Origin: Calothrix brevissima NIES-22
Lineage (GTDB): Bacteria > Cyanobacteriota > Cyanobacteriia > Cyanobacteriales > Nostocaceae
Direction of reading: 5' to 3'
Assembly (NCBI RefSeq): GCF_002367995.1
Contig: NZ_AP018207.1
Span: 3,223,083-3,287,082 of the forward strand
DNA length: 64,000 nt
Shown here in pieces: positions 16,950 to 31,008 of the stretch; positions within the stretch are counted from its first letter, which is position 1, and every line of letters begins with the position of its first letter. The position numbers and the translations under genes were made by a program. The notes below the pieces were generated by a model. The model searched no databases, had not been told where the DNA came from, and worked only from the letters and a program-made list of their open reading frames with translations.

Positions 16950-18020
16950 CTACAAATAACGGGATAATACCTCAGCCGTGGCAATTCCTGTTTTTTCCCA
17001 GCTAAATTCCTTGGATCTGGCGATTCCTTGAACCGCTAGACGCGATCGCAATCCTGAATCATTAGCCACAGCCTGCATAGCTGCGGTAATTTCCCCTGTA
17101 TCATAGGGATTGATCAGAATCGCCGCATCGCCAGCTACCTCTGGAAGGGAGGAAATATTAGAAGTAATTACAGGAGTACCACAAGCCATTGCTTCTAAGA
17201 CAGGTAAACCGAAACCTTCCCAGAGACTAGGAAATACGAGAGCGATCGCACTATTGATCATTTTTGGTAATTCGCTGTATCCAACATAGTCCAAAAATTT
17301 CACCTGATTAGCAATACCCAATTCCTCAGCTTGTGCTTGTAAAGTAGGAGTATAACGGCGATCGCTGGGCCCTACTATCCACAGTTCGTAATCTTGACTA
17401 TTGGGTAAAGCAGCAAAGGCGCTAATTAGTCGATGGGCATTTTTGTAAGTATCTTGGCGACCAATGTAGAGAAAGTAGTTGCGAGTTGGTAAATTTAAAG
17501 GTTGGAAGTGAGTGCGATCGTAGCCAAGGAGAATTGGTGTAATTTTGCTGCTAGGAATTTGATAAAAGTCGATGATGTCTTGCGCTGTAGCTTGGGAATT
17601 GCAAATAACATGTTGTGCTTGCTTCAGGACTTGGGGCGTATAGTAGCGATGGTAAGGTACAAGCGGTGAAAAGCGTCTTGGAAAGCGCAACGGGATTAAA
17701 TCGTGAAACATGACCACAAAACGACAATTTGTATAAAGTGGCGCTTCTGGTAAAGGTGAAAATAAGAGATGAGATTTCAGCTTTTGATAAATTTGTGGTA
17801 GTTTAAATTGCGTCCAAACTAAGCGGTTAAAATGTCCTTTTGAACCTTGGTCTGGTGTTAAATTTGCTGGAACTAAGTAGCATTTATTATCTGGTATTTT
17901 TTGCGATATTAATAAAGTAGGATTTAGGAAATTTAGCCCAGAAATAAGCTGATTGGCGTAGGTTGAAATTCCTGTAGGTTTAGTACTGACAACAGATAAA
18001 TTAACTAAAAGTTGATGCAT
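16950..18020 (-). CDS. Glycosyltransferase family 4
   Basis: A GT-B fold retaining glycosyltransferase of 356 residues, the last gene of the glycan operon. The acceptor-side half shows [16 protein letters not shown]; the donor-side half has [14 protein letters not shown], the [20 protein letters not shown] motif holding the E-x7-E pair, and [13 protein letters not shown]. It would add one sugar, from a nucleotide-sugar donor, on the cytoplasmic face. The ATG at 18020 shares a base with the TGA of the upstream gene (TGATG), so translation is coupled. A TTG one codon earlier is less likely. Confidence 0.88.
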
Positions 18021-18868
18021 CAAAAATTTGGCGATCGCTGAAAATAAATGAATACACCATAAAGTTTACCAAATGCTACATGAGGTTTGATAGGCAATAA
18101 AATCAGAGCGTAAGCAATCAACCGAGCTAATCTGATGATAAACACCGCTATATTGGTGTATTTGGCTAACGTTAATAAATAACTATAAGTACTATGTTGA
18201 GTTTTTAGAAAAATATTTCTATTAGTAATTGAAGAAGGTTGATGGATAGCGTCAAACTGCTTAGTTACCGCAACTAAATGTCCTAAATTACCATAGCGTA
18301 GACAAAAATCAAAATCCTCATAATAAAGAAAATACACCGGATCGAACAAAGGAGATTCTGAAAAATTGCCCAGATTAACAAGCGTGCTACAACCGGAAAC
18401 CCAATCGCAAGCAACATATGCGCTATCTGTATTCTCTAAAATGTTGGCTGTGATAATTGCACCAGTTAAAGGAATAAATCGACCACCAGCAAACCAAACT
18501 TCACTACTAGGAGTATGGATAATAGTTCCGAGAATTGATAGTTCTGGATAGGTTGCAAAAAATGGATTAACTTTTTCTAAGGTATTTTCTGCAAGATAAG
18601 CATCAGGATTGATTATCCAAATAATTCCTTGCTTATCTTGATGGTAAATCCATTTAATTCCTAAATTACAAGCTTGACCAAAGCCAAGATTTCTCCCAGC
18701 TTCAATAATTGTCACAGTTTCACTACTCAGTTTTTGAATCTCAACATCTTCTGGTGAATTGTTGATGATAACTGTTCTATATTCGCTCTGGTATTTAGCT
18801 GGTAGCGAATTAAGTAATTTAGCGATGAGATTTTGAGAAAAATAGTTAACTGTTAAAAAATAAATCAA
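18020..18868 (-). CDS. Glycosyltransferase family 2 (rhamnosyltransferase-like)
   Basis: A GT-A fold inverting glycosyltransferase of 282 residues. Visible motifs are IYFLTVNYFSQNLI at the N-terminus, AGRNLGFGQACNLGI, the metal/nucleotide-binding IINPDAYL, and the acceptor-base region PVYFLYYEDFDFCLR. This pattern is typical of WbbL/rhamnosyltransferase-type enzymes. A hydrophobic, basic C-terminus suggests membrane association. The start codon is TTG (18868); no in-frame ATG lies near. It is coupled to the downstream GT4 gene by a one-base stop/start overlap. Confidence 0.85.
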   Translation of the reverse strand: MIYFLTVNYFSQNLIAKLLNSLPAKYQSEYRTVIINNSPEDVEIQKLSSETVTIIEAGRNLGFGQACNLGIKWIYHQDKQGIIWIINPDAYLAENTLEKVNPFFATYPELSILGTIIHTPSSEVWFAGGRFIPLTGAIITANILENTDSAYVACDWVSGCSTLVNLGNFSESPLFDPVYFLYYEDFDFCLRYGNLGHLVAVTKQFDAIHQPSSITNRNIFLKTQHSTYSYLLTLAKYTNIAVFIIRLARLIAYALILLPIKPHVAFGKLYGVFIYFQRSPNF

Positions 18869-18941
18869 AGTTCTGGAATTTTCAAACTACCACTTTTAAA
18901 TTTTAAACCACCCAATAACAAATAACCAATGACAATTGTAC

Positions 18942-18961
18942 AGACGCGATGAATCGCGTCT
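18942..18961. repeat. AGACGCGAT-ATCGCGTCT dispersed hairpin
   Basis: Nine-base perfect arms around GA form a tight hairpin between two glycosyltransferase genes. A second copy, with TC in the centre, is at 34122-34141, and partial copies are near 50880 and 60735, often preceded by TTGTACAGA or TTGTAGAG. It is a dispersed palindromic repeat. Confidence 0.65.
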
Positions 18962-18988
18962 CTGACCAATGACTATTAAAAATATTAA

Positions 18989-19912
18989 TTACCAATTTTT
19001 CCCCAGATTTCCTATCAAACCATGATAAGTGCCTAATAAACAAGCCCATATTTTTAAATTTTTGTTATCTAAATCATAGAGGCTAATCCAAAAAGTACTA
19101 TATAGCATATATTTAATTCGCCATATTAAGCAAGTGAAACGATAGTAACCTTGAGAAAAGCGAGTTTCTAAATAAGTATGATTGCGACAGATATAATAAT
19201 AACGTAAAGCTGAATATTGTTGGATATAGCGATATTTATTCATGAATTTTACCTGAATCGGATTGCCAAAATTATGATGCATAATAGCTTGAGTCACAAT
19301 TAGGTTATGAAAACCTTTTTGTCTTAGTTGCATTCCATATTCAAAGTCAATACCATCAATAAATAATTCAGCACAAGGCGGAGAAATAGTTTTAGCCGCA
19401 GCTAATGAAACTAGAGAACCTGAAGTAATTGGTGAATCACATTCATAAAATTCTACAGTATGATTATGTTGAAGACCTTGAAAGCGATCGTTTAAAAAAA
19501 CTGCACCTTCTATGACATTACCTGTTCTCGGATCGCAAGGAGTAGGAGCGATAATCCCAATTTGATAATTATCTTCCTGAGACAATTGATGATAAATTTT
19601 TAGTAAAATTTCCAGGCAGTTGGCAGTCGGTGTACTATCCTGATCGAAAGACCATAGAAAATCATATTCTTGTTCGATAGCCCATTTGATAGCCCAATTT
19701 AGTCCAGCACCAATTCCGATATTTTCTGGATGAAATTTGATGATAATATTTTCTTGATTTATCAGATGGGATAAAGGGTTTTTTGTGGAGTTGTCTAATA
19801 TCAAAACCTTGTCTACAGCAAAGGATTGACAAGCAATAGCATTCAGACAATCCATAACTGCTTTTGGATCTTCATACGCAGTTATATAAGCTGCTATTTT
19901 ATAGCAATACAT
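18989..19912 (-). CDS. Glycosyltransferase family 2 (rhamnosyltransferase-like)
   Basis: A 307-residue GT-A enzyme of the RfbF/rhamnosyltransferase group: AYITAYEDPKAVMDCLNAI, VLILDNSTKNPL, the acidic WSFDQDSTPTANCL metal motif, and FIDGIDFEYGMQLRQKGF near the catalytic base. A C-terminal amphipathic or hydrophobic region (RFTCLIWRIKYMLYSTFWIS) may hold it at the membrane. It is separated from the next gene of the operon by about 120 bases containing a palindromic repeat. Confidence 0.85.
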   Translation of the reverse strand: MYCYKIAAYITAYEDPKAVMDCLNAIACQSFAVDKVLILDNSTKNPLSHLINQENIIIKFHPENIGIGAGLNWAIKWAIEQEYDFLWSFDQDSTPTANCLEILLKIYHQLSQEDNYQIGIIAPTPCDPRTGNVIEGAVFLNDRFQGLQHNHTVEFYECDSPITSGSLVSLAAAKTISPPCAELFIDGIDFEYGMQLRQKGFHNLIVTQAIMHHNFGNPIQVKFMNKYRYIQQYSALRYYYICRNHTYLETRFSQGYYRFTCLIWRIKYMLYSTFWISLYDLDNKNLKIWACLLGTYHGLIGNLGKNW

Positions 19913-19970
19913 AATTTTCTGGGTAGCGCTGATTTAGGAGATAAATTTATACTGTTACTATCTCCAGATT

Positions 19971-20630
19971 TTAAGCTCGTCTAGTTGTAAACCAATTAAT
20001 TGCTTTTTTAAGTTCATCTTCTTTGAAACTTATATTTCCTTTCGATGCAATTACATGTTTCTCAGCATAACGGTTCACAGCAAATTTTCTCTGCGGTTGA
20101 ATTATTTCACCTTGATATTCCCGTCTTACTTCTATATGAGCGCAAAATTCTTTAACTATACCTTTATAATATCTGAGCGCAAAATCCAGATTAATTTTAT
20201 TTTTGTAAAGTTCCACAAGAATGTGAGGTTCAATAATAAAAGTAAACTCACTTAAAATCCATCTAGCATTTAAAACTTTTTCCCAAAAATCCACATACCA
20301 AACACAAATATGCAGATAATGGTCTTCATTAAAAAATAATTTGTGGTCTATAATAAATGCCGAATTTTCCCAAGCATAAGGAGTCCATAATTCTAATTTT
20401 GCTCCATCTACACATACACGGCTGATTTCTGTAAATATTTTTGTGGGATCTTTCAAATGTTCTAAACAGTGAGAGGAATAAACATAATCAACACTGCGAT
20501 CAGCTAATGGTAAATTGTCAGTTTCCAGATTGAGAACATAATCAACTCCTGGTTGAGGTAATATATCAATCCCTATCGTTCCTTCTTTTTTACAAGAGCC
20601 ACATCCTATATCTAGTTTTAAGTAATTCAT
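19971..20630 (-). CDS. SAM-dependent methyltransferase in glycan operon
   Basis: A class I methyltransferase of 219 residues. Motif I is LDIGCGSCKKEGTIGID at the extreme N-terminus, followed by YVLNLETDNLPLADRSVDYV and the YSSHCLEHLKDP segment typical of Methyltransf_11 enzymes acting in polysaccharide clusters. It may O-methylate a sugar residue of the exported glycan; the acceptor is unknown. It sits between two glycosyltransferase genes on the same strand. Confidence 0.82.
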   Translation of the reverse strand: MNYLKLDIGCGSCKKEGTIGIDILPQPGVDYVLNLETDNLPLADRSVDYVYSSHCLEHLKDPTKIFTEISRVCVDGAKLELWTPYAWENSAFIIDHKLFFNEDHYLHICVWYVDFWEKVLNARWILSEFTFIIEPHILVELYKNKINLDFALRYYKGIVKEFCAHIEVRREYQGEIIQPQRKFAVNRYAEKHVIASKGNISFKEDELKKAINWFTTRRA

Positions 20631-20668
20631 CTTGTTTTCAACCTGATAACTTACACTAATAGTTTAGA

Positions 20669-21733
20669 TTAATTCACAACTGCTAAAATAGCATCCTTCC
20701 AGTTTTGAGCGCAATGTTTTAAGGTGCGATTTGTTAATACATATTGTTGCGCATTCTTTGCTAAATTTATCCGTAAAACTTCGTCGTTTAGCATACAATC
20801 AAAGGCTTCTAACCAAGCTTGGGGATTATTTTGAGTTAAATATCCCGTTTCTAAATGACGAATAGTATTTTCATAAGGTGCTACATGGCTGTATATACCT
20901 GGTATTCCTAAAGCACTATAATCCAAAAATTTAATATCAGATTTACAGCGTGTAAACGAGTTATCTTCTAAAGGAGCAATTGCTAAATCCCATTTAATAT
21001 TGTGGCTCATCCAACGGATGAAATCTGGATATTTATGTTGTTGACCTACATCTAGCAGCTTGATAGGTAAACCATCAAAGGCTTTTAATATCGACAAGTC
21101 AGCAATACTACCAATTAATTGAAATTCTACTGTAGTGGAATATTTGCGTAAAGTTGTGCGTAAAGCCTGTAAAATCATCATCAAATCGTCATCATGGGAA
21201 CGTGTTCCCATATAACCAATCACTTTTTTGCTATTACTATTTGTACTAGTTGTTATAGTGTCAGCTTGATGAGAAATTCGACTTTCTAGCAGGCGTTCAT
21301 CTAAAGCATTAGGTATAACTAAAATATTTGAATTTAACAAAGATAAACGTTGCTGTAAATATTTGGTAGAAACAATAATCGCATCGGCTTTTCTCGCCAA
21401 AAAACGGATGACCATCAATTGTTCATGAGTTAATTCGTTTTGGGCGATCGCATTAAATTTTAAATCTAAAAGGTTATCATCAATCGAATAAACCAAACGC
21501 GCTCCCTCGCTGCGGACTTTATCTACTAACTCTTCGGCTAAAGACAAAGATATATTTGGTTTCCAAGTCCGTTCGACAATAATGACATCAGCTGATTGAA
21601 AGCTCGTTCCTTGAGTGACTAAAAAAGTATTTTGGTTCGTAGGGTATGTTAGAGGTAACAGTAGCCTGATAAAAGAAGAACCATGTGGATAGATTTTATT
21701 GCTATGTTCATAAAGAACATGAATGGTAATCAT
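20669..21733 (-). CDS. Glycosyltransferase (GT4/GT1-like)
   Basis: A GT-B fold protein of 354 residues: ITIHVLYEHSNKIYPHGSSF at the start, LVYSIDDNLLD and DAIIVSTKYLQQRL in the first half, IGYMGTRSHDDDLMMIL opening the donor domain, and KFLDYSALGIPGIYSHVAPY where other GT4 enzymes have their E-x7-E segment. The second Glu is not obvious here, so the donor site is divergent. Fifteen bases separate it from the large fusion gene upstream. Confidence 0.8.
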   Translation of the reverse strand: MITIHVLYEHSNKIYPHGSSFIRLLLPLTYPTNQNTFLVTQGTSFQSADVIIVERTWKPNISLSLAEELVDKVRSEGARLVYSIDDNLLDLKFNAIAQNELTHEQLMVIRFLARKADAIIVSTKYLQQRLSLLNSNILVIPNALDERLLESRISHQADTITTSTNSNSKKVIGYMGTRSHDDDLMMILQALRTTLRKYSTTVEFQLIGSIADLSILKAFDGLPIKLLDVGQQHKYPDFIRWMSHNIKWDLAIAPLEDNSFTRCKSDIKFLDYSALGIPGIYSHVAPYENTIRHLETGYLTQNNPQAWLEAFDCMLNDEVLRINLAKNAQQYVLTNRTLKHCAQNWKDAILAVVN

Positions 21734-21748
21734 TTTGGTAAATTAAAT

Positions 21749-24700
21749 TTAACCTTGAGTGGTAAACAGAGCATCTAGAATTTTATATGCAGCTTTTTCT
21801 GGGAAGTATTGACAAATGTCATTAATTGCAGTTTGTTGTAATTTTTGACGTAGTTCTTGGTCAGAAATTAAACGATTTAATTCCTGAAAACAATTTTCAT
21901 CAGAGCTAGTATCTACAATCAAACTATTTTTTTCATGTATTGCAAAACTAGATGCACCACCTGCTTTTGGTACTATAACTGCTGCGCCACAAGCCATTGC
22001 TTCCATAGCAGTTAAACCCATAGCCTGAAAACTAGAGAAATCGACAAAAATATCAATTTCATTCAACAGACTTGCTAATTGGGAGCGAGTTAAAATTCCA
22101 GCGTTATCAAAGGAAAAATCACGAGTCAAAGTTGTAAATTGAGGATCGTTTGACTCACAGCCAAAAATAACTATTTGAATATTATTACCATGAATTTGAT
22201 AAATTTTCTGCAATACTTTCATGGTTAATCCAGCAGCACGGCGAGGCGTATCTGGGCGAATCATGGCTGCAATTCGCAAAGGTCTTTGAGGCCAATTTGG
22301 ATCTCGGCGGTTGCTGGGTCGATATAAATCTATGTTGACACTAGGCCCAATAATTACACAATCAGTTTGTGTCTGCTTGTTAACTAAATCACGATTCCAT
22401 TCAGTCTTAGTAAATTTGACTAAATCTGCATATTGATTGTAAGACTGCAATGCAATTTGATATTCTGGCGATGCTTCTGGAAAAAAGTATGGTTCAAAAT
22501 CTTGAATATAGTATCCTCTCACAGGAAATTTTTCATCTTGATTGAGGATTTTTAGCCAATAAACAGACTTGTATAAAGTGGCAATTACGGCATCATATTT
22601 AGATAGCAGATGAGGAATTTCATCTTCATTTTCTACATAAATAATAGGAATATTATTGTCAGGATAACCCTGTTCAAAGATAGGGCGATGGCGATTAAAG
22701 TTAACAATTCTTACATCTACGCCCATTTTTTGCATTGCTGCGGCTTCTTGAAAGACTACATTGCCACCACCACCAGGATGCAAAATAGGTAAAATAATTA
22801 AAACTCGTTTTCCTTCCCAACGGGATTTTCCCTCTTCTATAAATTTTTGTCGGGAGAGCATAACTCGGCTGCGAGAACGAATACCTGCAATTACTCTGTC
22901 AAAACGACATACTGTCACACCTTCGCTGATGATTTGCTGTCCATGCTTGGCAATTAAAGCTTGATCGGCGCGATCGCACAATAGCTTGCGCCGTTCGTGG
23001 GAATAACTGCGTGATTGACTGTGGTAAATATAGGTATCGTCAGCAATGGCTAATTCCCAACCCGCTTTTTTTGCTCGCAAACAGTAATCGTTTTCTTCGC
23101 CGTAACCTGCACCAAAGGTTTGTTCATCAAAGTATCCTAAACTAGCGATCGCCCTTCGTTTGATTGCTAGACAAAAGCCGTTTAAAAATGGTATGCGCGG
23201 GTACAAGCGTCGCGAGTAATCAGCTACTAGCTTACCCATGTAACTCACGGTCATTCCTAAGGGCAATTTGTTTTCTGCCCAATCTCCATTTTCGCTAATT
23301 TCTGGGATAGATTGCCAAGAAGCAGTATTGGAAAGGGGCCCTATCAGACCTATTTTGGGATCAGATTCTCCACAAGCAACAATTCTATCTAACCATTTAG
23401 GTGTGACGATAGTATCGCTATTGAGTAAAATTACATAATCTGCTTTTGATTTTTTCAACCCTTGATTGGCGGCGAATGTGTAGCCTTTAGCAACTTCATT
23501 TCTAATTAAAGTAGCACCTTGAGTAATCGCAAATTCTGCTAAATATTGACAAGTTTCTGCGTTACTTCCATCATCTACGATGATGATTGAATATGGCATT
23601 GAGGAGTAACGCACAACAGATTGTAGACAATTTTTAACGTCATCTAAAGCATTATGAACGCAAACAATTACATCTACAGTTAAAGAATGTTTGCTAATTG
23701 GCGATGGTGGTAATACTTGGTCTACTAGATGATGAGGAGAAAAGGTATTTTTTGCCAACCTCATACTCGATAGCTGGGGAAAAATTACTAACAATTTCCC
23801 CAATCGTTCTTTGATTTTAAACCACAATCTACGCAGTTTCCAAAACTTACTAGTTTCCATAGCAGCAATAGTTGTGTTTGATTGTTCTAATGCTGCTTGA
23901 GTTTCTTGTAACTGGGATTGCGATTGCTCTAATTGTGCCTGTAGTTGTTGCAGTTGCGATTGCGATCGCTGTAATTGTGCCTGAGTCTTTTGCAGTTGCG
24001 ATTGTAATTGCTGCGATTCTTTGAACAACTGATAACCAGAATTATGAATTACAGCTTTTTCTGTTTCTAAAATACCAGGCTCTGCCCTAATAATAAACTG
24101 TAAAGTCTCCGCATCTGCATCTGCTTCAATTTGGTTAATAATATCAGTATTAAATTGTTCTTTTTTATGTTGCGGTACCAAAGAACTTTCTGAGAAAATT
24201 TCTAGTTTTGTCCGGTCTTGATTAGTTACTAAATATCCGGCTCTGGTAAATAATTCCTCAACTGTTTCTCTGGTAAAAAACCGTAAGTGAGTATTATCTA
24301 AAATACCTAATTCTGTATATTCAAATTTACCTTGTAATAAAGCCAAGCGAATTGCACCGTGGCCTATATTGGGAATAGAAGCTACTACATATCCATCTTT
24401 TTTTAAGATATCTTTAGTGTCTGATAAAACTTTCCAAGGGTTTCGCAGATGTTCCAAAACATCCCCAAAGACTGCTACATCAAACTCTTGACTAGGTAAT
24501 ATTTCTTGCACAGACACAAAATCTAAGTCAGCAACTATTACCTCTTGACAGTACTGTGCAGCAATTTGAGCCGCATCTGAGTTTATTTCTACTCCTGTAA
24601 CAATACAACCCTTTTGATTCAGAATCTGAGCCAAATAACCCGTTGCACAGCCAAAGTCTACTACTCGCTGATTGTTACCAATCAAATTGAGCATTTTTCT

Positions 24701-24778
24701 GATACTGTTATTTTCATCCAAATTTTCTTCTGTGAGTTGTGCAACCAATGGATAATCTTTTGACCAATCTTGAGCCAT
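21749..24778 (-). CDS. Methyltransferase - coiled coil - GT2 - GT4 fusion protein
   Basis: A 1009-residue multi-enzyme polypeptide. Residues about 15-235 are a class I SAM methyltransferase (VVDFGCATG at 39-47, GDVLEHLRNPW at 105-115). Residues about 248-308 are a Gln/Ser/Leu-rich coiled coil with 7-residue repeats such as LQKTQAQ and LQRSQSQ, ending in METSKFWKLRRLW. Residues about 365-630 are a GT2 domain (VDVIVCVHNA, IIVDDGS, LLNSDT at 451-456, GAGYGEENDYCLRA). Residues about 655-1009 are a GT4 domain (ILPILHPGGGGNVVFQEAA, MGLTAMEAMACGAAV). It lies 28 bases after the Wzt gene. The layout suggests sequential sugar addition and methyl capping at the export complex; see findings. Confidence 0.88.
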   Translation of the reverse strand: MAQDWSKDYPLVAQLTEENLDENNSIRKMLNLIGNNQRVVDFGCATGYLAQILNQKGCIVTGVEINSDAAQIAAQYCQEVIVADLDFVSVQEILPSQEFDVAVFGDVLEHLRNPWKVLSDTKDILKKDGYVVASIPNIGHGAIRLALLQGKFEYTELGILDNTHLRFFTRETVEELFTRAGYLVTNQDRTKLEIFSESSLVPQHKKEQFNTDIINQIEADADAETLQFIIRAEPGILETEKAVIHNSGYQLFKESQQLQSQLQKTQAQLQRSQSQLQQLQAQLEQSQSQLQETQAALEQSNTTIAAMETSKFWKLRRLWFKIKERLGKLLVIFPQLSSMRLAKNTFSPHHLVDQVLPPSPISKHSLTVDVIVCVHNALDDVKNCLQSVVRYSSMPYSIIIVDDGSNAETCQYLAEFAITQGATLIRNEVAKGYTFAANQGLKKSKADYVILLNSDTIVTPKWLDRIVACGESDPKIGLIGPLSNTASWQSIPEISENGDWAENKLPLGMTVSYMGKLVADYSRRLYPRIPFLNGFCLAIKRRAIASLGYFDEQTFGAGYGEENDYCLRAKKAGWELAIADDTYIYHSQSRSYSHERRKLLCDRADQALIAKHGQQIISEGVTVCRFDRVIAGIRSRSRVMLSRQKFIEEGKSRWEGKRVLIILPILHPGGGGNVVFQEAAAMQKMGVDVRIVNFNRHRPIFEQGYPDNNIPIIYVENEDEIPHLLSKYDAVIATLYKSVYWLKILNQDEKFPVRGYYIQDFEPYFFPEASPEYQIALQSYNQYADLVKFTKTEWNRDLVNKQTQTDCVIIGPSVNIDLYRPSNRRDPNWPQRPLRIAAMIRPDTPRRAAGLTMKVLQKIYQIHGNNIQIVIFGCESNDPQFTTLTRDFSFDNAGILTRSQLASLLNEIDIFVDFSSFQAMGLTAMEAMACGAAVIVPKAGGASSFAIHEKNSLIVDTSSDENCFQELNRLISDQELRQKLQQTAINDICQYFPEKAAYKILDALFTTQG

Positions 24779-24806
24779 AATTCTCGTAATTTAATATGTA
24801 GCTTAA

Positions 24807-26153
24807 TTAAGTTTGCGTGACTATGTTTGGTAAACTTTTTTTGTTAATTTTAACTACCATTGGTTGAGCAACTAAAGCATGAATTCGCTTTCCCGTGTCT
24901 GGAGGTAAAATTTGCACAACCATGATATTATCAATCCAGTCAAAGCTAATAGATTCGTAATTTTCTGCCCCAGCTACTGTTAAACTATAGGAACCAGGGC
25001 GTAGAGGTAAATTAAATTCAAACCTAATTTCTATTTCTTCTGCTGCTGCTAATCGATCTATTGTGATATTTTCTTCTAAAGTATTGCTCCCAATTACTTC
25101 ATTACCGTTTTTATCGCATAAATGAAAGCCGACAATACAACTATTTATTGGCGAATAAACTTTGACATTGACAACTAATGTAACTTTTTCATTAAATAAA
25201 AATACGGGATTTTCTCCGGCATATTTTCCTAGTTGATTTAGAATTTTTACATTTTCAATTTTCGCTTTTCCACTGCCTCTACGTGTAGCATTTTTGAAAT
25301 TTAAGCTAGGAGATTCAATATCAGAATTGGCAGCAGTTGCAGATGGTATTACATTATCTGAGATATTATTTACTTGCTGTTGGGAGTTAACCTCAACTTC
25401 TGTTGATAACCCTAATTCAAGTTCTGTAACTAATTTTAAATATTCAAGTATAACAGCATTTGGCAATCCTGTCGTATGTATTTTACCGTCATGGAGCATA
25501 ATGGCTGAATTGCACAATGTTTTGATTGCGCCAGCATCATGGGAAACAAATAATGTTGTCACGCCAGAATCCATCATTGCACGCATTCGCCGCATACAAC
25601 GATGTTGAAAGACAATATCGCCTACAGCAAGTGCTTCGTCAACAATGAGAATTTCTGGATCGACATTGACGGCAACAGCAAATGCCAAGCGGACAAACAT
25701 ACCGCTAGAATAAGTTTTCACAGGTTGTTCAATAAAATCGCCTATATCGGCAAAAGCCGCAATATCATCAAATCTGTCTTCGATTTGTTTTTGACTTAAT
25801 CCTAATAATCGTCCGTTAAAAAATACATTTTGCCTACCAGTAAACTCTGGGTTAAAACCACTACCTAATTCTAATAAAGCAGAAACTCGACCGTTGACTT
25901 GCACATCTCCACTAGAGGGCGTGAGGGTGCCGGCAATTATTTGTAATAATGTACTTTTTCCCGAACCATTGCGTCCTACGATTCCCACTGTCTGTCCTTT
26001 GGGAATCTCAATGTTAATATCTTTGATTGCCCAGAATTCATCTACTTTACTATGACTGGGTAGCAACACTTCTTTAAGTTTATCTACAGGTCTGCTGTAG
26101 CGTTTAAAACATTTTGAGACATTCTGAAGGGAAATGGCAATTTCTTCACCCAT
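24807..26153 (-). CDS. wzt: Polysaccharide ABC transporter ATPase with C-terminal carbohydrate-binding domain (Wzt)
   Basis: The ATPase of an ABC-dependent O-antigen/capsule-type exporter. The nucleotide-binding domain has Walker A (VGRNGSGKST), signature (TYSSGMFVRLAFA), Walker B (ILIVDEALAVGD) and the His switch (FVSHD). After about residue 290 a beta-rich Wzt-C domain follows (KIENVKILNQLGKY, VGFHLCDKNGNEVIGSNT, LRPGSYSLTVA); in E. coli O8/O9a and relatives this domain recognises the modified non-reducing end of the glycan. I choose the ATG at 26153 (MGEEIAISLQNV); a TTG 24 bases upstream is possible. It pairs with the permease upstream. Confidence 0.9.
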   Translation of the reverse strand: MGEEIAISLQNVSKCFKRYSRPVDKLKEVLLPSHSKVDEFWAIKDINIEIPKGQTVGIVGRNGSGKSTLLQIIAGTLTPSSGDVQVNGRVSALLELGSGFNPEFTGRQNVFFNGRLLGLSQKQIEDRFDDIAAFADIGDFIEQPVKTYSSGMFVRLAFAVAVNVDPEILIVDEALAVGDIVFQHRCMRRMRAMMDSGVTTLFVSHDAGAIKTLCNSAIMLHDGKIHTTGLPNAVILEYLKLVTELELGLSTEVEVNSQQQVNNISDNVIPSATAANSDIESPSLNFKNATRRGSGKAKIENVKILNQLGKYAGENPVFLFNEKVTLVVNVKVYSPINSCIVGFHLCDKNGNEVIGSNTLEENITIDRLAAAEEIEIRFEFNLPLRPGSYSLTVAGAENYESISFDWIDNIMVVQILPPDTGKRIHALVAQPMVVKINKKSLPNIVTQT

Positions 26154-26242
26154 ATTTTTGCTGTCAATCCTCAACAATCACACAATCAATCTCAAATGCG
26201 ATCGCACTCGTTTTGCTAAATCTCACTGCATCATCTACCTGT

Positions 26243-27100
26243 TCATAACACATCAGCAAATGCTGGGCGCAGACGGCGATAACAGGACAATCCCCCGATA
26301 AAGACTACAACTGCAATGATTGAAGCAACTCCCCATTCACTCCAATGTTTCACTTCTCCAACTAAAATTAAATCACGATAAACTTCTGCGATCGCCGCTA
26401 TGGGATTTAACCACAGTACCCAACTCCGCCATTGTGCGGGAATATGGGATGCTGGATATACTAAGGGTGTTGCGTAAAACCAGATATTTAATATCACCCC
26501 TAAAGTCTGAGGAATATCTCGCAAAAATACTGTTATTCCTGCTGCTAAATAACCCAATCCAGCAGTTAACAATAACTGTGTTAACCAAACTAAGGGTAAC
26601 AGCGCTAAAGTAGGATGTAAAGTATGAGAAGTTAAGGCAACAAAAAAAATTAACGCCATTAAACCAAAAGAACTTTCGATAAATGTAGATAAAATAGGTA
26701 TTAAAGGTAATAAAGCTAAGGGAAAAACTACTTTTTTAACTAAATTTGGTTGAGTAACTACTGAATTAGCCGATTGTAATAATCCCCCTGTAAAAGCAAT
26801 CCAAGGTAGTAAGCCGGCAAACAACCACAAGCCAAAAGTAAAGTTATTTTCTGGTAAAGTTTTCAGCGTTAATTTAACTTTTAGTACAATGGAAAATACG
26901 TAGGTGTAAATTAGTAATTGCGATAACTGATTGAGCAAAGGCCATAAATTGCCTAAGACAGAACCTTTATATCTGGCTTCTAAATCTCGTCTGACTAAAG
27001 TTCTGAGTAAATCAAACTTTATCCATAATTTTTCATTAATTGGGAGAATACGCTGCAATTTTTTTGCTTGATGAATAAATCCTCTAATTGTCTTTAGCAA
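26243..27100 (-). CDS. wzm: Polysaccharide ABC transporter permease (Wzm)
   Basis: A 285-residue ABC-2 type permease, first gene of the glycan operon. It has six hydrophobic segments preceded by an amphipathic N-terminal helix and the family segment LVRRDLEARYKGSVLGNLWPL; later IPQTLGVILNIWFYATPLVYP and WLNPIAAIAEVYRDL match TagG/Wzm permeases. It exports lipid-linked glycan across the inner membrane together with Wzt. The start is TTG at 27100; no in-frame ATG lies between it and the upstream stop. The promoter should be in the 27.1-27.3 kb spacer. Confidence 0.87.
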   Translation of the reverse strand: MLKTIRGFIHQAKKLQRILPINEKLWIKFDLLRTLVRRDLEARYKGSVLGNLWPLLNQLSQLLIYTYVFSIVLKVKLTLKTLPENNFTFGLWLFAGLLPWIAFTGGLLQSANSVVTQPNLVKKVVFPLALLPLIPILSTFIESSFGLMALIFFVALTSHTLHPTLALLPLVWLTQLLLTAGLGYLAAGITVFLRDIPQTLGVILNIWFYATPLVYPASHIPAQWRSWVLWLNPIAAIAEVYRDLILVGEVKHWSEWGVASIIAVVVFIGGLSCYRRLRPAFADVL

Positions 27101-27308
27101 TTCTTGCTGCCTCGCTCGTTATCTATATATTCCATTGCTATTCATGAAGCTAATTAGCTATGAAAGTTCCCTTAGCATTTTTATCGCTATCAATAATACA
27201 TTACTAAAAGATATCCTCCTTAATTAACGGGGTAATTGTATTCTGAATAAACTATAAAGCAAGTTGATGATAATTATCTCTGTTAGCTTTTGCAGAAAAT
27301 CTGAGGAA

Positions 27309-28085
27309 TTAACTTAAATTATCAGGATCAATACCAAGCGATCGCACATACTCTGCCAATTTTTCAGCCCGTTGGCGTTCTTGTTCAGCCCGTTGGCGTT
27401 CCTGTTCAGCGCGTTGGCGTTCTTGTTCGGCTTGTTCGGCTAGGGTTGGTAGCCAACCTTGAGAATTATACCAACGCAACCATAAACCTGTTGTCTGTTG
27501 GTAAGTGCCTTGCCATAATCCTAATCCTAGTTCCAACTCTGCTAACCAAAAGCGGTTATCTGGTAGAGGTACTGCTTCATAACGATTACCAATCAGTTGA
27601 AAAATGCGCAGAATATTGTCGTAGCGGTCGTAAACTACATAGTAAGGTACTCGCAAAATGCGTTCATAAACTTCCCATTTAGTTGGCGGCTGATTAACTT
27701 CTCTAAGTGTTTTGCCTAAGTCTTCTTGTTCTGTACCTGGTGAGAGTAATTCAACTACTAAAAATGGTGCAATTCCCTCTTGCCAAATGACGTAACTTAA
27801 GCGTAAGTCTTGCTGTTGGCTAGCACTAGCTACCCCTAAAACCATGTACCAATCAGGTCTTTTGTACCATAAAGTATGGCGGGGGTCGTAGTAAAGATTT
27901 AAATCGCTAGCTAGTAAAATTTCTGTTGCTGAATAGTTGGCAGGCTGACAAGTCTCAGTGAGTAAATCAGCTTGAATACAATGAAATTCATCCGGCAATC
28001 CCGATTCCCCTATTACTTCACTGGGTAAATCATACATTGTCGGCATGGTTTCTTGAGGCGAACGTGGCGGATTTGGATCGTACAT
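27309..28085 (-). CDS. Uma2-family putative restriction endonuclease-like protein
   Basis: A 258-residue DUF820/Uma2 protein, a family greatly expanded in cyanobacteria and with a PD-(D/E)XK nuclease-like fold. Seen: LASDLNLYYDPRHTLWYKRPDWYMVLG, PFLVVELLSPGTEQEDLG and YERILRVPYYVVYDRYDN, which hold the acidic/Lys core. The C-terminus (about 217-248) is a repeated ERQRAEQ heptad making a charged coiled coil. Despite the nuclease fold the biological role of Uma2 proteins is not established. It is transcribed alone. Confidence 0.85.
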   Translation of the reverse strand: MYDPNPPRSPQETMPTMYDLPSEVIGESGLPDEFHCIQADLLTETCQPANYSATEILLASDLNLYYDPRHTLWYKRPDWYMVLGVASASQQQDLRLSYVIWQEGIAPFLVVELLSPGTEQEDLGKTLREVNQPPTKWEVYERILRVPYYVVYDRYDNILRIFQLIGNRYEAVPLPDNRFWLAELELGLGLWQGTYQQTTGLWLRWYNSQGWLPTLAEQAEQERQRAEQERQRAEQERQRAEKLAEYVRSLGIDPDNLS

Positions 28086-28255
28086 CGCTGCTAATTTAAT
28101 GATGGCAAAATAATTGCTAAGGGAGTTTTTATTATTTTAGTCATTAGTCATTGGTCATTTGTCCTCCTCATTTCCTTTCTATTGCTGTAAATTTATGACA
28201 GATGAGGTACGGATTCAGTTAAACTGAGACTTGGTTTATTGCATTGTATCTAGGC

Positions 28256-28450
28256 ATGGAAATCGGACAGAAGGTTAAGGTAGTTCGTTTGCGCGATCGC
28301 GTATCTCCCCCAATTGTGAAAAGATTAGGAGAAGTTGGCACAGTTTTAGGCTACAAAGTCACCGATGGTAGCGGTGTGGGTGTAGTAGTGCAATTTGACG
28401 ATAATTCATCGACTTGGTTTTTTGAAGATGAATTGAGAGTCGTACAGTAG
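28256..28450 (+). CDS. petP: Cytochrome b6f complex subunit PetP
   Basis: A 64-residue SH3-like (DUF2862) protein. PetP is a peripheral cytoplasmic-side subunit of the cytochrome b6f complex in cyanobacteria and red algae, affecting linear electron flow. The sequence MEIGQKVKVVRLRDRVSPP, GTVLGYKVTDGSGVGVVVQF and AWFFEDEL-like TWFFEDELRVV fits that family. Start ATG at 28256 is preferred to a TTG four codons upstream. It precedes the Get3d-type gene by 72 bases on the same strand. Confidence 0.8.
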   Translation: MEIGQKVKVVRLRDRVSPPIVKRLGEVGTVLGYKVTDGSGVGVVVQFDDNSSTWFFEDELRVVQ

Positions 28451-28522
28451 GCGGAAGTTAAGAAGATTTGCCGAGTGCTAAGTTGGAATGGACAACAATC
28501 GGCGGTAACTAAAAATCAAGTC

Positions 28523-29623
28523 ATGACCTTTATATTGACATTTTTGGGCAAAAGCGGCATTGCTCGTACCAAAATTGCGATCGCATCTGCCAAATTATTG
28601 GCTAGCCAAGGTAAGCGCGTACTTTTAGCCGGACTTGCAGAACCAGCATTACCTATTTTGCTGGATACTACTCTCACATCCGACCCTCAAGAAATTGCTC
28701 CTAATTTGCAAGTAGTACAGTTTCAAGCATCTGTACTACTACAACGCCAATGGGAAGAAGTCAAAAAGCTTGAGGCGCAATACCTCCGCACACCCATTAT
28801 TAAAGATGTTTATGGTGAAGAATTGGTGGTATTGCCAGGTATGGATAATGCCCTTGCTCTGAATGCAATCCGCGAATATGATGCTTCTGGCAAATATGAT
28901 GCGATCGTTTACGATGGTACAGGTGACGCTTCCAGCTTGCGGATGTTGGGATTACCAGAGTCTTTGAGTTGGTATGTGCGCCGCTTTCGCCAATTATTTG
29001 TTAACTCCGATTTAGGTAAAACAATTGCCGAATCGCCCTTGATTCAACCGTTGATTAGCACTTTGTTCAATTTTAATTGGACAGCAGACAACTTCGCGCA
29101 ACCGACTAATCAAGTCAATAATTTCCTCGAAAAGGGTAAAGCTGCTGTGGCTGACCCCCGGCGGCTTGCGGCTTTTTTGGTAACTACACCAGAACCGATT
29201 GAGGTAGCTAGCAGCCGCTATTTGTGGGGTAGCGCACAGCAAATTGGTATTACTGTTGGTGGTGTGATTGTTGTCTCTGGTGAAGGTAACCATAATGTCA
29301 CAGAGGAATTTAACCCCTTACCGATTAGTGTAGTACCTGATGCACCGGCTGGTGAATGGCGATCGCTCATCGATGCCCTACCAGATTTTGCCCAAGAAGC
29401 AATAAAAGCACCAAAACCCATTGAAATTGATGTCCACAACCGTCAGGTACGCTTATTCCTGCCTGGATTTGATAAAAAGCAAGTCAAGCTAACCCAGTAC
29501 GGGCCAGAAGTGACAGTAGAAGCCGGCGACCAACGGCGTAATATTGACCTCCCACCCTCATTAAGTGGTAAATCTATCACTGGAGCAAAGTTTCAAAATA
29601 GTTATTTGATCGTTTCGTTTTAA
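28523..29623 (+). CDS. Get3/ArsA-type ATPase with C-terminal alpha-crystallin domain (Get3d type)
   Basis: A 366-residue P-loop NTPase of the ArsA/Get3 group. The N-terminal P-loop region reads FLGKSGIART (residues 7-16) where typical ArsA/Get3 proteins have GKGGVGKT: the signature Lys is kept (K10) but the P-loop Lys position is Arg (R15). The body (residues about 20-280) is ArsA-like, and the last 75 residues (IEIDVHNRQVRLFLPGFDKK, then ITGAKFQNSYLIVSF) are an alpha-crystallin/Hsp20-like beta sandwich. This architecture is that of Get3d, found in cyanobacteria and plastids; its clients are unknown. Start ATG 28523 begins exactly at the first strand. Neighbours are petP and chlG. Confidence 0.82.
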   Translation: MTFILTFLGKSGIARTKIAIASAKLLASQGKRVLLAGLAEPALPILLDTTLTSDPQEIAPNLQVVQFQASVLLQRQWEEVKKLEAQYLRTPIIKDVYGEELVVLPGMDNALALNAIREYDASGKYDAIVYDGTGDASSLRMLGLPESLSWYVRRFRQLFVNSDLGKTIAESPLIQPLISTLFNFNWTADNFAQPTNQVNNFLEKGKAAVADPRRLAAFLVTTPEPIEVASSRYLWGSAQQIGITVGGVIVVSGEGNHNVTEEFNPLPISVVPDAPAGEWRSLIDALPDFAQEAIKAPKPIEIDVHNRQVRLFLPGFDKKQVKLTQYGPEVTVEAGDQRRNIDLPPSLSGKSITGAKFQNSYLIVSF

Positions 29624-29637
29624 CTTATAGATATCGG

Positions 29638-29757
29638 GGACTAGGGGCTAGGGGCTAGGGGCTAGGGACTAGGGGCTAGGAATAAATCATGCCCAATGCC
29701 CAATGCCCAATGCCCAATGCCCAATGCTCAATGCCCAATGCCCCATACCCCATACCC
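29638..29757. repeat. Tandem heptamers: CTAGGGG then CCCAATG
   Basis: A run of GGGGCTA units (about 29638-29680) is followed by CCCAATG units (about 29690-29757) between the Get3d-type gene and chlG. Other copies are at 34143-34197 and 42272-42325 (CCCAATG) and 13911-13950, 41256-41295 and 42183-42246 (CTAGGGG). Translation of the array gives spurious N-terminal MPNAQCP-type extensions on downstream genes. Confidence 0.8.
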
Positions 29758-29775
29758 TATGCCCAAATTTATCTT

Positions 29776-30819
29776 ATGTCTGATTTAACTCCCATTACTC
29801 CCAATTCTCAGCAAGCGGAAGCTATAGATTCTGTTAATCCCAGCGAAGAAATTACAGCAGTTGCCGATGACCGCAGTGCGAAAACTAGGCAATTACTGGG
29901 GATGAAAGGCGCAGCACCGGGCGAAACTTCTATTTGGAAAATCCGGTTGCAATTGATGAAGCCTATCACCTGGATTCCCTTAATTTGGGGTGTAGTTTGC
30001 GGTGCAGCTTCTTCTGGTAACTACACTTGGACATTAGAAAATGTGCTGAAAGCTGCGGCTTGTATGTTGCTTTCTGGCCCTTTGCTAACAGGTTACACCC
30101 AAACCATCAATGATTTTTACGATCGCGAAATTGATGCGATTAATGAACCTTATCGTCCTATCCCCTCTGGAGCAATTTCTGTACCCCAGGTAATTACGCA
30201 GATTGTTGTATTATTATTATCGGGAATTGGTTTAGCCTATGTCCTGGATTTATGGGCTGGGCATGACTTTCCCAATGTAACTGTACTGGCTATCTTTGGT
30301 ACATTTATTGCCTACATCTATTCAGCACCACCCCTGAAGTTAAAACAAAACGGCTGGCTAGGTAATTATGCTTTAGGTGCTAGCTATATTGCTTTACCTT
30401 GGTGGGCGGGTCATGCTTTATTTGGCGAACTGAACTGGAAAATTGTGGTGCTGACCTTAGTTTACAGCTTAGCTGGATTAGGGATTGCCATTGTTAATGA
30501 CTTCAAGAGCGTTGAAGGCGATCGCCAATTAGGATTAAAATCACTACCTGTAATGTTTGGTGTCACTACCGCAGCTTGGATATGTGTAGTGATGATTGAT
30601 GTATTTCAAGGATTAATTGCTGCCTATCTAGTTAGCATTCATGAAAATTTATATGCAGCAATTCTGGTACTGTTAATATTGCCACAAATCACTTTTCAGG
30701 ATATGTATTTCTTACGCGATCCTTTAAAGAACGATGTCAAATACCAAGCCAGCGCCCAACCTTTTCTAGTATTGGGAATGCTTGTGGCTGGTTTAGCTTT
30801 GGGTCATGCTGGTATTTAA
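29776..30819 (+). CDS. chlG: Chlorophyll synthase
   Basis: A UbiA-family prenyltransferase that attaches phytyl or geranylgeranyl diphosphate to chlorophyllide, the last step of chlorophyll a synthesis in the thylakoid membrane. The 347-residue protein has the first Asp-rich motif NDFYDREIDAINEPYRPIPSG and the second NDFKSVEGDRQLG, with eight or nine membrane helices; RQLLGMKGAAPGE is typical of ChlG. I start at the ATG at 29776 (MSDLTPITPN); an upstream in-frame ATG at 29689 lies in a tandem repeat array and is rejected. The gene is followed by a clear terminator. Confidence 0.93.
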   Translation: MSDLTPITPNSQQAEAIDSVNPSEEITAVADDRSAKTRQLLGMKGAAPGETSIWKIRLQLMKPITWIPLIWGVVCGAASSGNYTWTLENVLKAAACMLLSGPLLTGYTQTINDFYDREIDAINEPYRPIPSGAISVPQVITQIVVLLLSGIGLAYVLDLWAGHDFPNVTVLAIFGTFIAYIYSAPPLKLKQNGWLGNYALGASYIALPWWAGHALFGELNWKIVVLTLVYSLAGLGIAIVNDFKSVEGDRQLGLKSLPVMFGVTTAAWICVVMIDVFQGLIAAYLVSIHENLYAAILVLLILPQITFQDMYFLRDPLKNDVKYQASAQPFLVLGMLVAGLALGHAGI

Positions 30820-30855
30820 GTTATACATCCTGAGTTAGACGTTAAGAGTTGGGGG

Positions 30856-30890
30856 TTAGGAGTTAAAATTACTTCTAACTCCTAATTTTT
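30856..30890 (+). terminator. Intrinsic terminator of chlG
   Basis: Perfect 10-base arms TTAGGAGTTA (30856-30865) and TAACTCCTAA (30876-30885) enclose a 10-base loop and are followed by TTTTT. It lies 37 bases after the chlG stop codon. Confidence 0.65.
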
Positions 30891-31008
30891 AATTAGGCAA
30901 ATTTCAGGAATGATTGCTGATCAGAGATGACTGTCTAGGGGAAAAACAACCCCTAACTAATCAAGCTGTTGCCTGATTTTTAAGTTGGCATTAATATGAG
31001 AAATTGCC

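Follow-up and report, generated by a model that had tools for sequence, protein, structure and literature searches.

A candidate single-chain polymerase-terminator with a coiled-coil ruler of stepped length beside the Wzm/Wzt exporter of Calothrix brevissima NIES-22

The window analysed here is a stretch of 64,000 nucleotides from Calothrix brevissima NIES-22 (contig NZ_AP018207.1, positions 3,223,083 to 3,287,082). On its minus strand the exporter genes wzm and wzt are followed by an open reading frame (ORF) of 1009 amino acids (21749–24778) in which a methyltransferase, a coiled coil and glycosyltransferase domains of families 2 and 4 (GT2 and GT4) are joined in one chain. This fusion protein is probably (at a probability of about 0.68) both polymerase and terminator, in a single chain, of a lipid-linked surface glycan that Wzm/Wzt exports, with the coil as ruler and a cap that is read by the C-terminal domain of Wzt (Wzt-C). 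The GT2 and GT4 domains, together with glycosyltransferases encoded downstream, would extend the chain at the membrane; an oligomeric coiled coil, some 11 nm long (73 residues of 0.15 nm), would hold the methyltransferase at its far end. A chain long enough to reach the methyltransferase would become methylated at its end and stop growing, and the capped end would be recognized by Wzt-C and the chain exported. The reading is based upon the architecture, the intact S-adenosylmethionine (SAM) and glycosyltransferase motifs, the linkage to wzt, a coil that is variable in length yet locked in register, and the covariation of Wzt-C with the methyltransferase. From these we infer catalysis, methyl as the cap, control of length, recognition by Wzt-C and the identity of the sugar.

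Starting at its N terminus, the fusion has Pfam matches to Methyltransf_23 at residues 29–185 (80 bits), Glycos_transf_2 at 370–476 (76 bits) and Glycos_transf_1 at 854–985 (58 bits). An AlphaFold2 model of the monomer, calculated from 62 sequences, has a mean predicted local distance difference test (pLDDT) score of 87.9 and a predicted template modelling score of 0.70. It places the methyltransferase up to about residue 235, followed by a helix (237–309), a second helix (311–329), GT2 and GT4. The methyltransferase domain (about residues 8–235; 24074–24757, minus strand) carries the SAM motif DFGCATG, and its solved relative is 3cc8 (E 8e-34), which is also found by Foldseek with the fusion model. 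The GT2 domain (about residues 367–640; 22859–23680, minus strand) retains the conserved D403, N453-S454-D455 and E561-E562-N563-D564. The GT4 domain (about residues 641–1009; 21752–22858, minus strand) is of the GT-B type; its top Foldseek match is the GT4 enzyme MshA (3c4q), and its score against WsaF_C in Pfam is 21 bits, under the cut-off. Residue 918 (about 22025–22027), which we take to be the first glutamate position of the GT4 E-x7-E pair, is glutamine in 60 of 62 aligned relatives, while the second glutamate (926) is kept in 61 of 62.

The putative ruler is the helix of residues 237–309 (23852–24070, minus strand), which begins directly after the methyltransferase. Along the coil the pLDDT is only 49–78 (block means). 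That this segment is a genuine coiled coil, as opposed to low-complexity linker sequence, is better shown by the heptad register, which is fixed across relatives, than by the model. The first-pass annotation had proposed a coil of roughly 60 residues; the coil itself stands, but on the modelled helix its length is nearer 73. The coil passes into a basic tryptophan-rich helix, SKFWKLRRLWFKIKERLG (residues 310 onwards, modelled as 311–329; 23792–23848, minus strand), a putative contact with the membrane or the polymerase. In relatives this helix has two tryptophans in 51 of 51 and a mean net charge of +4.8. There is no Pfam match to a kinase of the WbdD type, and no space for one between the methyltransferase and the coil, which makes the methyl-only termination of Klebsiella O5 the nearer comparison. 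A search of the genome with the fusion gave three matches (E 1e-10), none of them a full-length paralog; a search with the coil helix matched the window alone, although low-complexity filtering may hide others.

The architecture is not new. The first-pass annotation had held the combination to be undescribed, and this was rejected upon published accounts, which describe a one-chain design beside wzm/wzt for WsaE, Klebsiella O7 ORF6 and WbbB. The papers drawn on in this analysis as a whole are PMC2943079, PMC3898925, PMC11231755, PMC5082667 and PMC3769361. WsaE of the Gram-positive Geobacillus stearothermophilus NRS 2004/3a, which makes an S-layer glycan, has an N-terminal capping methyltransferase and two C-terminal glycosyltransferase domains in a single chain. 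Its wzm, wzt and wsaE genes are adjacent, with ends that overlap or lie close, and its Wzt is predicted to bind the methylated chain. There the glycan is a rhamnan, the two glycosyltransferase domains are rhamnosyltransferases and the cap is 2-O-methyl-rhamnose; the likeness to the fusion is one of described architecture. Unlike the fusion, WsaE is not linked with a coil in the excerpted text of one review, where the word 'coiled' has no occurrence. ORF6 of Klebsiella pneumoniae O7 has an N-terminal methyltransferase, a central coiled-coil ruler and two C-terminal glycosyltransferases, again beside wzm/wzt. It differs in having two GT2 modules and, between its methyltransferase and its coil, a kinase and a carbohydrate-binding module. 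The fusion has neither room nor a match for the last two, and ends in GT4. The excerpted Klebsiella paper calls the one-chain terminator-polymerase strategy widespread, and mentions cyanobacterial orthologs of the N-terminal part of ORF6, some of which stop after the coil. WbbB (Klebsiella O12 and Raoultella terrigena) also works with Wzm/Wzt and unites polymerase, terminator and coiled-coil ruler in a single polypeptide, but its cap is a β-Kdo (3-deoxy-D-manno-oct-2-ulosonic acid) added by a glycosyltransferase, not a methyl group.

Two further systems bear on the methyltransferase and its coil. In WbdD (Escherichia coli O9a; Klebsiella O3 and O5) the methyltransferase sits on a coiled coil whose terminal region binds membrane and polymerase; the length of the coil sets that of the chain, and the ruler was altered in length in engineered WbdD (PMC5082667, in excerpt). 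Unlike the fusion, WbdD has a kinase and a separate polymerase, and sequence similarity is insignificant (E 0.06). In Synechocystis, slr1610 is a cyanobacterial methyltransferase of a wzm/wzt cluster (with slr0977 and slr0982), likened to the fusion by description. According to the excerpted study its deletion phenocopies that of the transporter, and chain termination by methylation was proposed in 2013; the same study found no difference in purified O antigen.

The methyltransferase-coil module was sought in 217 genomes of the window's family, with matches in 45 at a cut-off of E 1e-100, a strict limit that leaves more distant modules uncounted. Together with the window, the surroundings (up to 20 kb) of 44 of the matches make 45 loci, and 43 of these have the methyltransferase (L119 and L121 do not). 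The module is a stand-alone protein of 325–451 residues in 32 loci, is fused to glycosyltransferases in 10 (982–1621 residues) and is truncated in one. The stand-alone proteins end just past the motif SKFWKLRxxWF, and resemble the layout of WbdD most. Partners in the fusions are GT2-GT4 (the window), GT4 with a WsaF-like domain (L123), GT2-GT2 (L127 and L129), GT2-GT2-GT4 (L130 and L131) and GT4 with GT2 (L125). As judged from these layouts, the methyltransferase-coil-SKFW module is portable in cyanobacteria, standing alone or joined to various glycosyltransferases. The link to the exporter, drawn in the first-pass annotation from the window, holds among the relatives: upstream of the module and on its strand there is a wzt gene in all 43 loci (35 of them within 150 bp, 39 within 500 bp). 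The closest Wzt carries Wzt-C in 40, and wzm is found upstream in 28.

Locus L122 (7858–11200) has a terminator of 325 residues and a GT2-GT4 polymerase of 790 residues as separate ORFs overlapping by 8 bp. Each has its own coil and SKFW helix, in the manner of a split version of the window fusion. In L130 (8499–13364) a long coil of near-identical 14-residue units lacks the SKFW motif, and there is extra sequence before the GT2 domains.

The length of the coil was taken as the distance between two anchors, the conserved LQF where the methyltransferase ends and SKFW. It is measurable in 41 family proteins (L126 is truncated and L130 has no SKFW anchor) and in 10 proteins from 14 loci drawn from the order and the phylum outside the family (leaving out L168, L181, L185 and L186). 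The coil spans 74–231 residues in 21 distinct lengths, and in the window it is 81. The anchor distance equals 4 modulo 7 in 37 of the 41 family proteins and seven of the 10 outside (44 of 51 in all). Counted by distinct length, 14 of the 21 are 4 modulo 7 (P 4e-7 if lengths are independent). Other moduli from 2 to 15, save 14, have no comparable effect, and the tail past the motif likewise has none. The hydrophobic residues keep one phase from the C-terminal SKFW anchor in 51 of 51 proteins, and from the N-terminal LQF anchor in 47. The methyltransferase itself is near constant in length; 188 residues separate its anchors in 41 of 50 proteins. On a tree of 50 sequences (L184, whose motif anchor is unmatched, being excluded) the Fitch minimum is 28 changes of coil length vs five of register. 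Disjoint nearest pairs of unequal length differ by a multiple of seven in 13 cases out of 17. The comparison supports a coil that would behave as a register-locked rod of variable length. No report of natural variation of such rulers in heptad steps was found in a literature search made mostly without subscription journals; what looks new is a rod that differs between species almost only by whole seven-residue steps. The 21 lengths form a natural series on conserved methyltransferases; those of L123 and the window, for one, are 81% identical at anchor distances of 158 and 81. If modal glycan length tracks coil length across strains the ruler model would be tested without engineering.

The presumed partner of the module in export is the Wzt of the window (24807–26177, minus strand; ABC_tran, 84 bits), listed as 456 residues. 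The Wzt_C domain spans its residues 296–436 (Pfam, 111 bits vs a cut-off of 30). The model of Wzt has a pLDDT of 79.7, and its top Foldseek match is 8dku, the full-length Aquifex aeolicus WzmWzt with bound O antigen, which is the best solved relative by both sequence and fold. The ORF opens with TTG, and the true length may be 448 residues because the aligned relatives in L011 and L012 begin at the equivalent of an internal methionine (MGEE...).

In the 25 of the 43 loci where both Wzt-C and wzm were found, pairwise identity of the methyltransferase correlates most closely with that of Wzt-C (r = 0.88), and less with that of Wzm (0.76) and the ATPase domain (0.72). The C-terminal region of Wzt was also compared with that of the window. 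Its identity is 0.50–0.56 in three loci having the same methyltransferase and the same polymerase, and 0.60–0.73 in three having the same methyltransferase with another polymerase. It falls to 0.21–0.22 in two loci with the same polymerase where the methyltransferase is absent or different, yet the ATPase domain stays at 0.64–0.72 in these two. Wzt-C varies with the methyltransferase, which fits a Wzt-C that reads the cap. That capping, ruler and polymerization might be united in one chain had been suggested from the window alone; the idea gains comparative support from the register-locked coil, the constant presence of wzt and the covariation of Wzt-C, and loses its claim to novelty.

O-methylated sugars are common inside bacterial glycans. 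The methyltransferase could make a methylated sugar of the ordinary kind inside the repeat, or some other decoration, with a coil that only oligomerizes and whose length is without effect. This is unlikely in view of several features. Among the 43 loci, 32 encode the module as a protein of its own, and in all 43 wzt comes before it. Wzt-C changes with the methyltransferase, and a stalk for oligomerization has no obvious need for lengths of 74–231 residues. In addition, L051 has a terminator of known type, a GT99 Kdo-transferase domain, at this position of the same polymerase core.

This last point comes from a scan of GT2-GT4 proteins, covering the best 80 of 170 relatives, with a GT2-GT4 ORF in 78 loci. 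Among these wzm is present beside 19 of 41 proteins with an N-terminal extension of at least 250 residues vs four of 37 with a shorter one, many of the contigs being short. The N-terminal part of eight chosen proteins is Methyltransf_24 (L021 and L050), Methyltransf_11 (L016), Methyltransf_25 (L049), Methyltransf_23 (L038), GT99 (L051), a second GT2 (L034) or nothing recognized (L014). L021 and L050, like L051 with its GT99 domain, each lie beside wzm/wzt. GT99 being a cap enzyme of the WbbB type, at least one relative has a terminator slot ahead of its coil. GT99 (WbbB-like) proteins were matched in nine of 398 genomes from the genus of L051, seven of them above the cut-off; the coil-end motif is present in only three of the nine loci, too few for an independent test of register, and they were left out.

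A number of observations weigh against a methyl-capped glycan measured by the coil. No wzm was seen upstream within the stretch examined in 15 of the 43 loci, and in L127, L130 and L161 the module lies beside a Wzt without Wzt-C. The excerpted accounts report that methylation by WsaE in vitro is independent of chain length, and that its authors called for a further length factor. The helix after the coil has a helical hydrophobic moment at the level of shuffled sequences (mean z −0.03), and an amphipathic helix is not claimed there. Joint inheritance of neighbouring wzm, wzt and module could explain part of the Wzt-C correlation. The register is broken in seven of the 51 coils, and slippage of 42- and 21-bp repeats in the DNA could hold the register without selection.

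Slippage calls for closer consideration. Most of the window's coil is encoded by a 42-bp tandem repeat of 3.2 copies (23880–24012, no strand assigned), detected by Tandem Repeats Finder. The same program detects repeats in 30 of 51 coils, mostly with a period of 42 or 21 bp, reaching 8.7 copies at 98% identity in L166 and 8.8 copies at 96% in L124. Because many coils are 42-bp tandem repeats, slippage alone could yield steps of seven or 14 residues. The coil might then be a ruler in principle, and its whole-heptad variation merely a by-product of slippage that is uninformative on selection for register; we place this somewhat short of even odds. The 21 coils without a detected repeat are also in register, in 19 of 21 proteins and five of seven distinct lengths, but these are fewer and related to each other, and older slippage may have decayed. 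The exceptions to the register also argue against a simple by-product. Six of the seven are offset by +4 (three), +3 (two) or +1 (one), corresponding to insertions that coiled coils absorb locally, while the seventh is offset by +6, and insertions of two or six residues strain the coil (PMC5082667, in excerpt). Either selection or mutation may lie behind the heptad steps.

The two ideas may also be combined. Units of 21 or 42 bp gained or lost by slippage would tune glycan length in quantized steps, each heptad adding or removing about 1 nm without disturbing the register of cap enzyme and polymerase. This suggestion is tentative. It would lead relatives to show discrete classes of glycan length from otherwise similar terminators, within a locus on the chromosome where the genes for exporter and glycosyltransferases are themselves swapped between strains, and the 42-bp repeats would offer a simple route to fast evolution of surface glycan length.

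Within the window the cluster is organized as follows. The wzm ORF (26243–27100, minus strand; 285 residues with a TTG start as listed) matches ABC2_membrane (PF01061, 79 bits). By ORF coordinates it is separated by 65 bp from wzt, which is separated by 28 bp from the fusion. The first-pass description of wzm, wzt with Wzt-C and the 1009-residue fusion as successive genes with short spacers is exact in its coordinates and confirmed by Pfam. Five more genes follow the fusion on the minus strand. These are a GT4-type glycosyltransferase of the same operon after a spacer of 15 bp (20669–21733; Glyco_trans_1_4, 27.5 bits with a cut-off of 27), a second, small SAM methyltransferase (19971–20630; Methyltransf_11, 40 bits), two GT2 glycosyltransferases (18989–19912, 35 bits; 18020–18868, 36.5 bits) and, last in the run, a GT4 glycosyltransferase (16950–18023; Glycos_transf_1, 132 bits).

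The small methyltransferase is an alternative candidate for the cap enzyme, and its place in the operon is a further point on the opposing side; the fusion domain would then be a relic or a structural part. This is very improbable, since the fusion domain keeps its SAM motif in 43 of 43 relatives (DFGCATG in 40, DFGCAVG in two and DFGCASG in one) and has 72 positions that are at least 95% identical among them. In the small protein, which was not looked for in relatives, no coil stood out.

The cluster (16950–31000 of the window) is flanked by pyk on one side and by an ArsA-like gene with chlG on the other. An ArsA-like gene borders 25 of the 45 family loci, in most cases accompanied by chlG. 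In the seven other genomes of the window's genus (L199–L205) this site is occupied by wzm, wzt and glycosyltransferases of differing make-up, and none of the seven carries the module. Their Wzt proteins are of 437–454 residues in three genomes and 243–260 residues in four. By analogy, this looks like an exchangeable, serotype-like surface-glycan locus, comparable in kind to the loci for O antigens.

Some features of individual loci can be added. The three modules beside a Wzt without Wzt-C (L127:7668–12328, L130:6922–13364 and L161:6791–10750) have a Wzt of 243–246 residues and a divergent Wzm, and would have a cap without its usual reader. In the loci where upstream wzm was not detected (L140–L145, L147–L150, L152, L155, L156, L158 and L120), wzt is adjacent to the module or near it. 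The gene adjoining wzm in the window (27309–28085) encodes a tail of repeated QERQRAE units, and its homologs lie beside several other clusters.

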